Part shown: positions 42,668 through 47,619 of the stretch, piece after piece
Layout: each line of letters starts with the position of its first letter
Numbering within the stretch: position 1 is the first letter of the stretch
Assembly: GCA_913055615.1 (NCBI GenBank)
Contig: CAJXKK010000001.1
Span: 1-64,000 of the forward strand
Length of the DNA stretch: 64,000 bases
From: an uncultured Ectothiorhodospiraceae bacterium
GTDB taxonomy: Bacteria; Pseudomonadota; Gammaproteobacteria; XJ16; Halofilaceae
Reading direction: 5' to 3'
The notes under the pieces: generated by a model
Told to the model about the DNA's origin: nothing
Database searches by the model: none
Seen by the model: only the letters and a program-made list of their open reading frames with translations
Made by a program: the position numbers and the translations under genes

Positions 42668-42743
42668 GAAAACAAAAAAGTATACCGCACCGGACGATGC
42701 CGCCGTTCGAACAAACGGCGGCAGAGCGCCCGGTACGATATAC
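42668..42743 (-). terminator. Strong rho-independent terminator after the acidic-repeat peptide gene
   Basis: Read on the minus strand: an outer stem of about 14 bp (42743-42730 with 42693-42680, two mismatches) and an inner perfect 9-bp stem GCCGCCGTT/AACGGCGGC (42722-42714 with 42707-42699, 6-base loop) are followed by TTTTTTGTTTT. It lies 26 bases beyond the peptide stop codon and closes the ligase-doxX-peptide operon. Confidence 0.9.
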
Positions 42744-42768
42744 CTGTCGTGAATCCTGCCGCGGCCGT

Positions 42769-43092
42769 TCAATAGCCGCTTTCGGATTCACCCTCTGCTT
42801 CGCCTTCGGCCTCACCTTCGGCCTCACCTTCGGCCTCACCTTCGGCCTCACCTTCGGCCTCACCTTCGGCCTCGCCTTCGGCCTCGCCTTCGGCTTCACC
42901 TCCGGCCTCACCTTCGGCCTCGCCGTCCGCTTCGGCCACGGTCATCTGGTACCCATCATCGGCGACCGCATCGGAGACAATTGCATGCCCTCCCGACACG
43001 CCCGCGACGAGTGCCAGCACCGGTGCCGCGTAGGCGATACCGCGTGACAGACTGCGAAGCAGTTGCTGCCGTTGCGCTTCTTCTTGAGACAT
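42769..43092 (-). CDS. Leader-plus-acidic-repeat peptide, (GEAE)n tail ending in GY
   Basis: 107 residues. The N-terminus MSQEEAQRQQLLRSLSRG is polar. It is followed by a hydrophobic, signal-like stretch (19-37: IAYAAPVLALVAGVSGGHA) and a short spacer with DDGYQMTVAEA. From residue 57 to 103 there are about 11 GEAE-type repeats, then ESESGY. AGGAGGAGAT precedes the ATG. No known family recognised. It is the last gene of an operon with a TTL/PqqD fusion enzyme and DoxX. I infer that it is a modification substrate (precursor) or exported acidic peptide. The Glu/Gly-rich tail with C-terminal Tyr resembles tubulin tails. Confidence 0.85.
   Translation of the reverse strand: MSQEEAQRQQLLRSLSRGIAYAAPVLALVAGVSGGHAIVSDAVADDGYQMTVAEADGEAEGEAGGEAEGEAEGEAEGEAEGEAEGEAEGEAEGEAEGEAEGESESGY
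42805..42924 (-). repeat. 12-bp tandem repeat encoding GEAE
   Basis: Ten consecutive 12-base units (plus-strand form TTCGGCCTCACC). The first five (42805-42864) are identical; the later ones differ at one or two bases (CTCGCC, CTTCACC or TCCGGC variants). The unit is in frame with the peptide, so copy-number change by slippage would only lengthen or shorten its tail. The high identity points to recent expansion. Confidence 0.95.
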
Positions 43093-43181
43093 ATCTCCTC
43101 CTGAGACTTTGCGACCGAAGTCGCATTACACGAGGTCGAAATGCACCTCGATCGGCTCATCGCCGGTGACCATGGAGACAA

Positions 43182-43601
43182 TCAGAATTCGTTGCCCCTC
43201 ACGAGGATGTACAGGGCCACGAGCAACAATGTGACCTGGAACATCATGCCCCCGAGCGGATGAGTCGGCGTGGCCATGAAATGCCACTGCCCCCAGTGCT
43301 CCATGACGATCGCGCCCAACATAACGGGTACGGTCATCACGGCACCAAGACGGGTAATCCAGCCGTTCGTCAGACCTCCAAGCACGATCAACGCGCCGGC
43401 ACCGATCTCGGCAAGCGCTACGAGTAACGCCATGAGGTACGGTAATTCCATGACCGCCGCGAATCCGTCGATCCCGCTCCCCATGAACTTGTCGATCCCC
43501 GTATAAAGGAATACGGATAAGAACGCCGCCCGAACAAACCAGTGCGCGTGCCGGCCAACGGCATCGAGGGATTCATCCCCGCTATTCATCGGTGCCCCCA
43601 T
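43182..43601 (-). CDS. DoxX family membrane protein
   Basis: 139 residues with four membrane helices: RAAFLSVFLYTGIDKFM, PYLMALLVALAEIGAGALIVLGG (in part), LGAVMTVPVMLGAIVMEHWGQ, and FQVTLLLVALYILVRG. The early IDKF and AEIGAGALIVLGG segments are typical of DoxX. DoxX proteins occur with quinone or thiol chemistry and in several peptide-modification operons. GGAGGA lies upstream of the ATG. It is between the ligase and the acidic peptide. An 89-base gap before the peptide contains only a 15-codon ORF (MVTGDEPIEV...) of doubtful meaning. Confidence 0.88.
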   Translation of the reverse strand: MGAPMNSGDESLDAVGRHAHWFVRAAFLSVFLYTGIDKFMGSGIDGFAAVMELPYLMALLVALAEIGAGALIVLGGLTNGWITRLGAVMTVPVMLGAIVMEHWGQWHFMATPTHPLGGMMFQVTLLLVALYILVRGNEF

Positions 43602-43706
43602 GCTCTCCTCCTTTTGTCATCATTCCAGCGATTGCGGTGTCACCACAGCGTGTCCATCACTTCGGCACCGTGGCCTTCCGTAATGTGTGGCTGAGCATGG
43701 CAGCTA

Positions 43707-46205
43707 TCAGCGATCCGCATAATCCGTACTTGTACGGACCGTTTCCTCTTCGTTTGCGACGGCCGCACCACTGTCGGCCGCCGGGATCAATTCCGCGATC
43801 CGTTCCCCCTTGGCATCGCGATCAACGGCATAGATCGGGCGTTCACTGAGCCATTCGGCGATCCGCGCTATTGTCTGTCGATCCGGGCGTTCCGCGTCCG
43901 GCTGATAAACCTGCGGGATCAGATACGCGAGCGCGGCATGGAACCCGATGCGTTCAGGCTGTGCGTCGCCCTGGTGGCTCGTCGGGGTCCGAGCGATGAT
44001 TACGGCCTCGATCGACTGCAGTCGGTTTTCCGGCATCGACGCCTCCAGCGCGCCGAGACGCCCGAACGACCACAGCGGCATGCCGGGCGTTGCATCAGCG
44101 GCCTCAGCGGGGTCATACGTGTGGCGCAGGGGCAACCCGAGGCCATGCACACAGCCCGTCTCCGCCAGATCGATCCGTACGCCACCGCTGACGCCGCCAC
44201 CCGCCACCTCGCGGCATGTCAGTGCGAGGCGATCATCGCCATCGCCGCCCTCACGGCATACCAGCGCGTTGCGCGATGCGCGCTCGTCAACCGCGGCGCT
44301 GAACCGGACGAGGGCCGCCGGCAAAGCGATCTCACCGGACTCCGGCGCGCGCTTGAGTAAATCCTCCACCAGCCAGGGTCCCAGCGCCGCGAGCGACAGG
44401 TTCTCCGCGACCGCCGTACCATCGGTGATCACATCGAAGCCGTGTCGCGAGCGCACGATCTCGATCTGCACGCCGGCCGCGTCGCAGCCGCTGCTGCGCA
44501 GGGGCTGGAAGATCGGATCCAGACGCCGGAAAGCCGGTCGACTCCAGCCACGCAGTTCCAGCGGATTCGCGCCACAGAGCAACTCCAGCCGATGGAGATG
44601 CTCGGCCCCGTCGATCCGCGCATGGCGGCTGTCGGTCCATGGTTCGGCCCAATCGGTGGTGGGCTCGTCCGCCAATGTCTGGATCAGGAGCCCGTCGCGG
44701 GACCAGTCCGCGAACGCGTCCCACACCTGCCGTTCAACCGCGGTCAGTGCCTGCGGGTCGCCGTCCGGGTCGAGTCCACTGGCGGCGACGAGCTCGCGCA
44801 CGACCGTATCCGGATCGCCGCCCTCGCTCGCGTGGAGCCAGATCAGCGACGCGGTCGGGTTGGGCGCGAAGACCTCGCCACTGGCCTCGGCATAGAGCGT
44901 GAGCTGGTCATCGGCGATCACCTCGGCGACACGCCAGCGGCGGGCGACCGGGTTCTCCACGGTACGCCCGGCGACGTGGCGCGCCAGAACCATGTCGGCG
45001 CGGCGCGGGAACGGGAAAAACGGCAGGTGGCGCTCCGGCTCCGGTGTCGGGTATACCCGCCGGAACCCGCCGGCACGGCCCGCCTCCGCGTCAGCCTCCG
45101 CAGCGAGCTCTTCCGGCGAGCCGTCCGCGCCCACGCGCTGGCGATTGGCGTCATTGAGACCAACAAGGGCGACCATGTCGTTCACCAGCCGGTGTTTGAC
45201 CTGCTCCTCGACGACGCCCCCGTCCTCCGGGGCGGCACAGACCCCGAGCGACGGGCTTAGGTTGCACTCGAGCAGCCACGGGTTGAGGTCCTCATCAACC
45301 AGGCAATCCATACCGATCAGTTCGTAGCATCCGCGCGGATCCGCCCCGAAACGATCAGTCGCCGAGCGCATGTTTTCGCGCGCCCCGATCAGGGTCAGGG
45401 CGATCAGATCGTCGATGCGTTCGAACAGCTTTTGATCGTCGTGCCCCTGTTCGCGAAGCCAGGCGCGGTAGCGCTTGAAATCGATGAATACGACCGGCGA
45501 CTCAGCGTCGGTGTTGTGCGCATTCACATCGGGGTTGGTCTGATGGACGTAGGGATTTGATCGATCTTCGAGCGAGTACGGACAGGACGCGAGTTTGGCG
45601 AAGCCCTGTTCGTACACGTAGACCCGCAACGGTTCGACCGAACTGACCAGGACATAGAGCCGCAGGACATACTTGCGGTCTTTCATAAGATGCGGCCGGG
45701 AGAGATACCCCTGCACCAGCCAGCGATCATCGGTCGGCGTCTCCGCCACATCGTCGAGCAGCCGGATATCGCGCCCGCGGGCACCGTTCTTCGGTTTCAG
45801 CATCCACAGCTGATCGGGATCGTCCGTGGCCGCCGACAGCAGCGCGTGGTAATCGCCCGGCATGCTGTAGACGCTTGGAACGAATTCCGTCCGCCGGGCC
45901 AAAGTGCTGCCCTCGCCGTACGCTACCGTTGCCCGCTCGCGGATCGCGCGCAGCGTAGCGTCCAGGCGACTCTTGATCGTCAGGCAGTTGTTACCTGGTA
46001 TATGGTTAACAGTGCGATTCGGCGCCGTTGCCCGGAAGGCCGCGCGCTCGGGCATCCCGGTATGCCAGCACGTATCCCACTCTTTTTCGTCGCCCGGCCC
46101 CCAGAGCGCCGGATCCAGCGAATCCTCGAAGAAAACGTCCTGTTCGCGTTCCCGCCGGCCCGACAGGCGGTAGCGGAAACGGGCTGACCGATCGGCTTCA
46201 CTCAT
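43707..46205 (-). CDS. TTL-family ATP-grasp ligase fused to PqqD-like and HprK-like regions
   Basis: 832 residues; GGAGGT lies 4 bases before the ATG. Residues about 65-350 form a tubulin-tyrosine-ligase (TTL/TTLL) domain: VNHIPGNNCLTIKS, MLKPKNGARGRDI (K137), WLVQGYLSRP, DRKYVLRLYVLVSS (K178, R182) and GMDCLVDEDLNPWLLECNLSPSLG (D300, E313, N315), all expected ATP/Mg residues. About 423-510 resembles PqqD (peptide-binding): LYAEASGEVFAPNPTASLIWLH. About 535-805 resembles HprK-related proteins of RiPP clusters but has no P-loop. TTL enzymes ligate an amino acid onto a Glu-rich tail. The PqqD region suggests recognition of a leader peptide, probably the acidic-repeat protein two genes downstream. 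Function is inferred. Confidence 0.88.
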   Translation of the reverse strand: MSEADRSARFRYRLSGRREREQDVFFEDSLDPALWGPGDEKEWDTCWHTGMPERAAFRATAPNRTVNHIPGNNCLTIKSRLDATLRAIRERATVAYGEGSTLARRTEFVPSVYSMPGDYHALLSAATDDPDQLWMLKPKNGARGRDIRLLDDVAETPTDDRWLVQGYLSRPHLMKDRKYVLRLYVLVSSVEPLRVYVYEQGFAKLASCPYSLEDRSNPYVHQTNPDVNAHNTDAESPVVFIDFKRYRAWLREQGHDDQKLFERIDDLIALTLIGARENMRSATDRFGADPRGCYELIGMDCLVDEDLNPWLLECNLSPSLGVCAAPEDGGVVEEQVKHRLVNDMVALVGLNDANRQRVGADGSPEELAAEADAEAGRAGGFRRVYPTPEPERHLPFFPFPRRADMVLARHVAGRTVENPVARRWRVAEVIADDQLTLYAEASGEVFAPNPTASLIWLHASEGGDPDTVVRELVAASGLDPDGDPQALTAVERQVWDAFADWSRDGLLIQTLADEPTTDWAEPWTDSRHARIDGAEHLHRLELLCGANPLELRGWSRPAFRRLDPIFQPLRSSGCDAAGVQIEIVRSRHGFDVITDGTAVAENLSLAALGPWLVEDLLKRAPESGEIALPAALVRFSAAVDERASRNALVCREGGDGDDRLALTCREVAGGGVSGGVRIDLAETGCVHGLGLPLRHTYDPAEAADATPGMPLWSFGRLGALEASMPENRLQSIEAVIIARTPTSHQGDAQPERIGFHAALAYLIPQVYQPDAERPDRQTIARIAEWLSERPIYAVDRDAKGERIAELIPAADSGAAVANEEETVRTSTDYADR
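43723..43738. promoter_or_regulatory. Palindrome TCCGTAC-tt-GTACGGA upstream of doxX
   Basis: A perfect 7+7 bp palindrome with a 2-base spacer, inside the last codons of the ligase gene and 122 bases upstream of the doxX ATG. The 14-mer CGTACTTGTACGGA recurs at 47723-47736 in a larger palindrome upstream of the DinB-like gene. It could be an operator, but no regulator gene is nearby. Confidence 0.4.
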
Positions 46206-46455: not shown

Positions 46456-46947
46456 ATGGCTGTGGTCTTTGACGAAGGGTTTTACGAGGGATTCGGTCCG
46501 CAGTGGACGGAATCGCTCGAGGCCATCGCGCACGAAACCGGCATCGATTCGCTGTTGATCATGCGCTCGACTCCGACGCACATGGTTACGGCGGCGAGCG
46601 CGGGGCCTCGCCGCGACAGCTACCACCCGGGCGATGCCGGCCCGAAGAGCGTGAATCCCGGCTGCCACAAGCTCTACTGCGAACAGGTTGTGAATGAGGG
46701 ACAGCCGCTCGAGGTCCGTGACGCCCGTACCGACCCGGAATGGGAGGGCAACGAAGACCTCGTCCAGTTCGGCCTGGGCACGTATCTGGGCTTCCCCCTG
46801 CGCGGGCCGGACCAAGAGATCCTCGGCACGATCTGCGCGCTCCACCATGAGCCGTTCGATTTCGATGCCGGCGAGCCAAGCCTGCGCGACCGCCTGCAAA
46901 CGCTGCAGGGCGAAATCGAACGCGATCTGTCAGCCGCCACGGCCTGA
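46456..46947 (+). CDS. GAF-domain protein
   Basis: 163 residues, a single GAF domain: LYCEQVVNEGQPLEVRDA (key CE, PLEV-DA), DPEWEGNEDLVQFGLGTYLGFPLRGPDQEILGTICALH (in part). This subtype usually appears as the sensor half of histidine kinases or diguanylate cyclases; here it stands alone without an output domain. GGAGG precedes the ATG. It is divergent from the TTL ligase across 250 bases, so it might share regulation with that operon. Ligand unknown. Confidence 0.85.
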   Translation: MAVVFDEGFYEGFGPQWTESLEAIAHETGIDSLLIMRSTPTHMVTAASAGPRRDSYHPGDAGPKSVNPGCHKLYCEQVVNEGQPLEVRDARTDPEWEGNEDLVQFGLGTYLGFPLRGPDQEILGTICALHHEPFDFDAGEPSLRDRLQTLQGEIERDLSAATA

Positions 46948-47067: not shown

Positions 47068-47619
47068 CTACGGCACCGCGGCCACGGGGTCGCCCGATTG
47101 CGCCCGGTAGCGAAGGGTCGAACCGGCGACACCGAATCCTGCGGGCAGGCCGCGGCCATGCCATTGCGCGAGCAGCGCGATCAAGGCCATATGGTGGACC
47201 GTATGGCTGAGCACGAAGTGGCATTCACGCTCGAGTGTCGATTCGATCTCGCAGGGGGCCCGCTTATCGTCGGCGGAGGTGTACCGCACCCGAACCGACG
47301 CGGGGCCCTGCGTTTCGGGCAGCGCCGCCAGGCGCTCACGGAGCCTGGCGATACGCTCGCTGGCGACCCGCGGATCCGTTTCGACCTCCGGATCGCGTGC
47401 ACGGGTCTCATAGTCGATGCGGCCACCAGAACACTGTAGCAGGCTCTCATAGTGCTCCAGCACATGGCGCACATGCCTGCCGATGGGATCGGCGCCAACC
47501 TGCTGATGGGTATAGTCTCCCGGTTCCAGGCGTGCCAGCAGTCCGTCGATGTGGTCGAGCTGGTCCAGATTGTCGCGGCAGAGCGCCGCGAGATTCGCCG
47601 CCACGGTCGCAGTCGTCAT
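47068..47619 (-). CDS. DinB-like putative metal-dependent protein
   Basis: 183 residues, four-helix DinB/YfiT-like pattern. Candidate metal ligands are HVRHVLEHYE (about 49-58) and the C-terminal HFVLSHTVHHMALIALLAQWHG (HxxxHxxHH, about 133-148; shown by motif). Members include thiol-dependent transferases and DNA-damage-inducible proteins of unknown function. AGGGAGG lies 7 bases before the ATG. A 26-bp near-perfect palindrome lies about 100 bases upstream. Confidence 0.75.
   Translation of the reverse strand: MTTATVAANLAALCRDNLDQLDHIDGLLARLEPGDYTHQQVGADPIGRHVRHVLEHYESLLQCSGGRIDYETRARDPEVETDPRVASERIARLRERLAALPETQGPASVRVRYTSADDKRAPCEIESTLERECHFVLSHTVHHMALIALLAQWHGRGLPAGFGVAGSTLRYRAQSGDPVAAVP

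Follow-up and report, generated by a model that had tools for sequence, protein, structure and literature searches.

A bacterial TTLL-type ligase with a PqqD-like domain and its Glu-rich partner peptides: a probable leader-guided system for protein-tail glutamylation

Enzymes with the TTL fold use tyrosine, glutamate or glycine as the donor amino acid, and we know of side-chain glutamylation of acidic tails by the TTLL family only from eukaryotes. TTLL5, for example, glutamylates the Glu-Gly repeats of RPGR, with recognition through a separate domain (PMC13052805, PMC4890669). Searching one literature library, we found no paper joining TTL with PqqD, or a bacterial TTL with a ribosomally synthesised and post-translationally modified peptide (RiPP). 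Here we describe a gene set within a 64,000-nucleotide stretch of DNA from an uncultured Ectothiorhodospiraceae bacterium (contig CAJXKK010000001.1, positions 1–64,000; hereafter the window), in which a TTLL-type ligase fused to a PqqD-like RiPP recognition element (RRE) is encoded together with a DoxX membrane protein and a peptide whose tail is a Glu-rich repeat. The system probably carries out leader-guided glutamylation of protein tails, the RRE-fused TTLL ligase adding branch glutamates before export.

The ligase is an 832-residue TTLL-PqqD-HprK-like protein (43707–46205, minus strand, ATG at 46205), as delineated from Pfam, an AlphaFold model and homologues. Its TTL/TTLL catalytic domain, residues 63–345 (45171–46019, minus strand), matches the Pfam TTL family (PF03133) with an E-value of 4.7e-55 and 187 bits against a cut-off of 20.1; the structural match extends over residues 27–398. 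When a profile of 15 aligned orthologs was searched against PDB sequences, the polyglutamylase TTLL6 ranked first (2.5e-65), followed by TTLL7 (3e-57), TTLL11 (2e-32), TTLL3 (9e-22) and TTL (2e-18). The AlphaFold model of the whole ligase (mean predicted local distance difference test, pLDDT, 75.5) gave a VIA-align Z of 34.9 to TTLL6 (root-mean-square deviation 2.9, 342 residues aligned), 30.8 to TTLL11, 26.4 to TTLL7 and 25.5 to TTL. By fold and residues the window ligase belongs to the TTLL family and, judged from profile and model, its catalytic domain is glutamylase-like, lying closest to the tubulin glutamylases with TTLL6 on top in both comparisons.

Residues K137, E313 and N315 are invariant in all 15 aligned orthologs and presumably correspond to the ATP-binding lysine and, for the latter two, the Mg ligands. 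Also invariant in 15 of 15 are R143 and L316, found in the local motifs [AS]RG and NLS. We take these to be the positions of TTLL6 Q180 and H362. Wild-type TTLL6 reads CQG and NHS here, and the engineered TTLL6 chains 6vzq and 6vzr read ARG and NIS, that is, Q to R and H to I relative to wild type. The PDB title of 6vzr is 'Engineered TTLL6 bound to the initiation analog', and the meaning of the engineered residues for TTLL initiation versus elongation was reportedly set out by Mahalingan in 2020. An active-site signature that distinguishes initiases is carried by TTLL5 (PMC13052805). Because the bacterial ligases share an arginine and an aliphatic residue with the initiation form of engineered TTLL6, they look like initiases, which attach the first glutamate of a branch.

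With the same architecture, the donor could instead be a different amino acid (for example Gly, Ala, Cys or Tyr), joined either to the C-terminus or to glutamates of the tail; we consider this variant unlikely. The range of donors used by TTL-fold enzymes leaves room for it, as do the tyrosine that ends several DoxX-linked peptides and the sulfurtransferase and sulfur-transport genes near several loci; a Cys donor would yield a thiol-bearing γ-glutamyl polymer suited to sulfur carriage. However, the profile matches to the glycylase TTLL3 and to TTL are far weaker than those to TTLL6 and TTLL7, and the structural Z drops likewise from TTLL6 to TTL.

Downstream of the catalytic domain, residues ~421–503 (44697–44945, minus strand) form a PqqD-like RRE of three strands and three helices, for which the Pfam PqqD match rises above cut-off in orthologs L016, L026 and L030. 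The C-terminal half of the ligase was modelled separately (mean pLDDT 79.9), and Foldseek matched its RRE region to the lasso RRE TbiB1 bound to its leader peptide (probability 1.00, TMt 0.81–0.84), with further small structural matches to lasso B1 with leader and to PqqD (5sxy). An RRE fold thus lies within the modifying enzyme itself, a feature by which RRE-dependent RiPP systems are recognised. It is followed by a PEPCK/HprK-like domain at residues ~538–795 (43821–44594, minus strand; hhalign and VIA-align), with a VIA-align Z of 14.9 to PEP carboxykinase and a Foldseek match also to HprK/P. Alphaproteobacterial PqqD-HprK_rel_A proteins (TIGR04352) can be aligned with the C-terminal half over its full length (hhalign probability 97.4–97.8%), but the Walker A motif has been lost, GASGRGKST of L126 standing opposite CREGGDGDD of the window ligase. 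The domain is missing from Spiribacter-type ligases and is absent in the orthologs L026 and L030, so the system does not depend on it.

The presumed substrate is a 107-residue peptide (42769–43092, minus strand), comprising a leader and a (GEAE)n tail that ends in -SESGY; it is conserved in the genus and belongs to a family of 51 distinct peptides. Family alignments place a conserved leader or signal anchor at residues 1–38 (42979–43092, minus strand), with the consensus RxxLLxxLSRGLxYxAP, and the leader profile has a single significant copy in the window genome. The tail, the presumed acceptor (42772–42933, minus strand), is encoded by a 12-bp tandem repeat in 11 copies (TRF), each specifying GEAE. 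Among the 20 loci of the species-genome scan given below, the gene beside each full ligase encodes this same N-terminus followed by a Glu-rich tail, so that a conserved leader with a variable core is encoded near the modifying enzyme, as for RRE-dependent RiPP precursors. Pfam and NCBIfam matches of the repeat tail (PARP, TolA, serine-rich) were dismissed as low-complexity.

The tails are of GEAE, GEGE, EATPEAMPE, EAKG or EEAAE type. Together, the 51 distinct tails (3251 residues) contain 978 Glu, 131 Asp, 83 Lys and Arg, and no Cys; the Glu:Asp ratio is 7.5:1, whereas in seven window proteins it is about 1. Glu persists among the family's tails while the repeat sequence drifts. Leaders of the Parvularculaceae end in a lipobox-like LLAGC or LLAAC. 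In nine loci (L016, L017, L075, L122, L123, L140, L154, L157 and L158) the repeat runs into a SoxA/TsdA-like cytochrome c domain, assigned by Pfam in L016, L017 and L140 and by C..CH and sequence likeness in the rest. Gammaproteobacterial genomes often encode two or three substrates: a DoxX-linked peptide, a (GE)n peptide whose gene diverges from that of the ligase, and a fusion to a cytochrome. DoxX-linked peptides ending in tyrosine (-SESGY, -EGGY or -ASY) were seen in the window (42769–42780) and in L003, L004, L055, L102 and L108, an ending reminiscent of the α-tubulin C-terminus.

A sequence-only reading of the window had proposed the ligase and peptide as partners, and the pairing indeed recurs across genomes. 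The full ligase was found in 37 genomes, and every one of them also codes for a peptide with the leader and Glu-rich tail; of the 39 ligase loci, 34 have the peptide gene next to the ligase, in three different orientations. The core of the proposal therefore passes both the co-occurrence check and the refuting condition that the sequence-only reading had set, namely orthologous ligases consistently lacking such a peptide. A scan of 85,000 species genomes for ligase relatives gave 20 loci. In the Parvularculaceae-type family of G375 (62 genomes), 12 genomes encode the ligase and the same 12 the leader peptide, which is adjacent in 14 of 14 ligase loci (Fisher 5e-13, uncorrected for kinship). 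The order of G376 (54 genomes) has 17 genomes with the ligase; all of these, and additionally G418 and G425, encode the leader peptide (p = 4e-12, again uncorrected). When 398 genomes from across the phylum were searched for the leader first, three carriers emerged, each with the ligase, and among 385 genomes sampled from the alphaproteobacterial class three encode the ligase, each with a peptide. The carriers include salt-loving and marine bacteria, among them the cultured Spiribacter salilacus, whose ligase has 465 residues. In the Marinicaulis-type genome G375 we observed two diverged copies of the ligase-peptide pair (L093, L087).

In the mechanism that we propose, the RRE domain of the ligase would bind the conserved leader of the peptide in the cytoplasm, and the TTLL-type ATP-grasp domain would activate the γ-carboxylates of the disordered tail's Glu residues and join free glutamate to them, most likely as branch mono-glutamates. 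The hydrophobic leader may then act as a signal anchor, or as a lipoprotein signal in the Parvularculaceae, leaving the modified acidic tail displayed in the periplasm, where it would stand by itself, lie next to DoxX or tether a c-type cytochrome. The sequence-only reading had likewise suggested a TTL ligase with a PqqD-like region that holds a leader and modifies the Glu-rich tail. The fusion is borne out, TTL by Pfam and PqqD at sub-threshold level backed by structure, and the predicted modification gains support from the pairing, the match to leader-bound RREs and the glutamylase-like domain. Several points weigh against this mechanism. The PqqD match of the window ligase (residues 437–481) falls below the Pfam cut-off, and glutamate is proposed as the donor purely from relatedness. 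Alphaproteobacterial tails with Lys, or with scattered EEAA or EEAAD, are unlike one simple repeat. The draft genomes G418 and G425 have DoxX and the peptide, with no ligase found, and the co-occurrence p-values ignore shared ancestry and are inflated by kinship. We identified no eraser, protease or dedicated exporter.

The third gene encodes a 139-residue, HvfX-like DoxX membrane protein (43182–43601, minus strand; PF07681, E-value 1.1e-9). The sequence-only reading counted it as part of the system; it proved to be a partner of one gammaproteobacterial peptide type, lying directly upstream of that type in gammaproteobacterial genomes only, and we regard it as accessory rather than core because it is absent from alphaproteobacterial loci. 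Its presence raises the alternative of a bufferin/HvfA-type metal-binding peptide, whose tail, modified or not, would buffer metal ions with DoxX acting as in bufferin clusters. Bufferin and oxazolin clusters typically combine exported precursors with DoxX (PMC12452194), and the resemblance of DoxX to HvfX (NF050144), although weak, is present: 19 bits in the window and 19–25 bits among the gammaproteobacterial loci, against a cut-off of 80. This alternative is nevertheless quite improbable, given that MNIO (PF05114) had no match in the window genome while two control genomes were positive, that no tail contains Cys, and that the alphaproteobacterial loci have no DoxX. A candidate homology of the window peptide to bufferin/HvfA (GYxM..AE then GE repeats, compare EGKCG) was dropped in the absence of MNIO and Cys; the GY motif is also largely restricted to DoxX-linked gammaproteobacterial peptides.

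To the idea that the tail is not an acceptor at all, but an unmodified polyanionic brush or spacer, with the ligase acting on the leader region, DoxX or another protein, we give only a slim chance. In the cytochrome fusions the repeat does sit spacer-like between anchor and haem domain, and some tails have no simple repeat. Yet many loci pair ligase and peptide without DoxX and without a cytochrome, and the conserved feature is Glu rather than net charge, as in the L016 tail, where 24 Lys or Arg accompany 22 Glu.

Ligase and DoxX-peptide genes lie far apart, with both retained, in G417, G421, G423 and G424 (of the 17), and on separate contigs in G396. On the ligase tree, the co-directional, divergent, convergent and unlinked layouts require at least four changes, so linkage has been kept or re-made through rearrangement; these changes and the unlinked cases are independent of the kinship-inflated p-values. 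Hitch-hiking of unrelated genes linked by descent alone is strongly disfavoured, for although close relatives make up many of the sampled genomes, linkage is retained across three orientations and two classes, and the genes are retained together when unlinked and absent together.

The three genes lie co-directionally on the minus strand, as the sequence-only reading had it, with order and orientation identical in the two other species of the genus. The 'self-contained operon' of that reading applies within the lineage of the window itself; other carriers have the genes in divergent, convergent or unlinked arrangements. An intrinsic terminator (42672–42745, minus strand) follows the peptide gene as a 68-nt hairpin (42745–42678) and then U6. 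The predicted minimum free energy is −52.6 kcal/mol, whereas shuffled sequences average −29.5. A simple terminator scan called only a weak terminator here, but we rate it strong, in agreement with the sequence-only reading, because of the folding-energy z of −7.6 and because none of 200 shuffles was as good. In G001 (L004:1177–3030, on a contig shared with L014) the ligase is truncated inside PqqD and runs on out of frame into DoxX, either through deletion or through an assembly fault.

Among the neighbouring genes, a secreted rhodanese stands beside the ligase in five 20-kb gammaproteobacterial loci (L135, L137, L140, L154 and L141), and a YeeE-type sulfur transporter occurs with the rhodanese in L141 and with DUF302 in L015. 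Taken together with the SoxA/TsdA cytochrome domains, these neighbours point, as a lead only, towards periplasmic sulfur oxidation; because the Spiribacter-type loci are syntenic with one another, the sulfur neighbours are no more than suggestive. A GAF-domain protein (window 46459–46947, plus strand) is divergent from the ligase and stands beside it in the genus too (L003, L004), and a DinB-like protein (window 47068–47619, minus strand) is again encoded at most a few kb away in 11 further gammaproteobacterial loci. Short TTL-family proteins without PqqD (L029:6004–8049, L031:5854–7709 and L033:5953–7850) have different neighbours, without the same leader: secreted-looking proteins of 228–258 residues whose N-termini resemble R[RK]xLxxxLxxGG and which carry a WxxPVVESxVLPAHAQT motif. 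These may represent a second pairing of TTL and substrate in bacteria. A TTL match on a Selenomonas ruminantium metagenome-assembled contig (L032) looks like eukaryotic contamination from a rumen ciliate. No relative of the system was found among viral contigs or in a plasmid collection, and a phage collection gave only two distant TTL matches (26% identity), so that within the collections searched this is not a mobile or phage system.

Our analysis suggests that bacteria have a hitherto undescribed form of protein-tail glutamylation. Tentatively, it may correspond in bacteria to the tubulin/RPGR glutamylation code and found a class of leader-guided ribosomal peptides and proteins. In this class an RRE-fused TTLL initiase would decorate Glu-rich tails of low complexity on exported proteins, membrane-tethered SoxA/TsdA-like cytochromes among them, and so tune periplasmic electron or sulfur transfer. 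If true, it would offer a two-gene, co-expressible model of TTLL tail chemistry and a new enzyme class among RRE-guided peptide modifiers, and would extend RRE-guided modification to full proteins, namely cytochromes tethered by a Glu-rich segment. The question why repetitive, sequence-drifting Glu-rich tails persist in proteins that bacteria export also becomes open to experiment. A quick first assay could use GT335, an antibody whose immunogen was a glutamylated EGEGEEEG peptide (PMC4890669).

Compared with known systems, the locus shares with HPr-rel-A, a PqqD-like chaperone with HprK-related kinase A, the organisation of the C-terminal half of its ligase; however, the HprK-like domain is dropped in Spiribacter-type ligases, and we rejected a kinase system because the window ligase has no Walker A P-loop. 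Graspetides likewise employ an ATP-grasp ligase on acidic residues of a ribosomal peptide, but theirs is of the MdnC type rather than the TTL type, a free amino acid is the expected nucleophile here, and GE-repeat tails lack the Lys, Ser or Thr partner needed for macrocycles; in the window genus, tails of the GE and GEAE kinds have no Lys or Arg bar one, and Ser only in isolation, which led us to reject this class. Bufferin and oxazolin (HvfABCX) MNIO clusters share the exported precursor, repeat-rich tail and DoxX neighbour, but here we saw no MNIO or DUF2063-type partner and the tail is Cys-free. With RRE-dependent RiPPs such as lasso B1 and PqqD systems, the locus has in common a PqqD-like RRE that is either part of the modifying enzyme or its neighbour, and a small precursor with a conserved N-terminal segment and variable tail, and by RRE and leader it falls among them, the core modification being predicted. 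It differs in that a TTLL amino-acid ligase is the modifying enzyme, the leader would double as a signal anchor, no leader peptidase or ABC exporter was seen, and some precursors carry a cytochrome c domain. TTLL5 acting on RPGR-ORF15, with TTLL4/5-type initiases in general, shares the TTLL catalytic domain, the initiase-type active-site signature, and a disordered, tubulin-tail-like Glu-Gly-rich substrate recognised outside the repeat. Whereas the cofactor-interaction domain of TTLL5 reads a C-terminal basic domain, the RRE would read an N-terminal leader, in a bacterial system with presumably exported substrates and no tubulin. By this analogy, TTLL5 on RPGR-ORF15 is the precedent that we adopt as a working model for the system.

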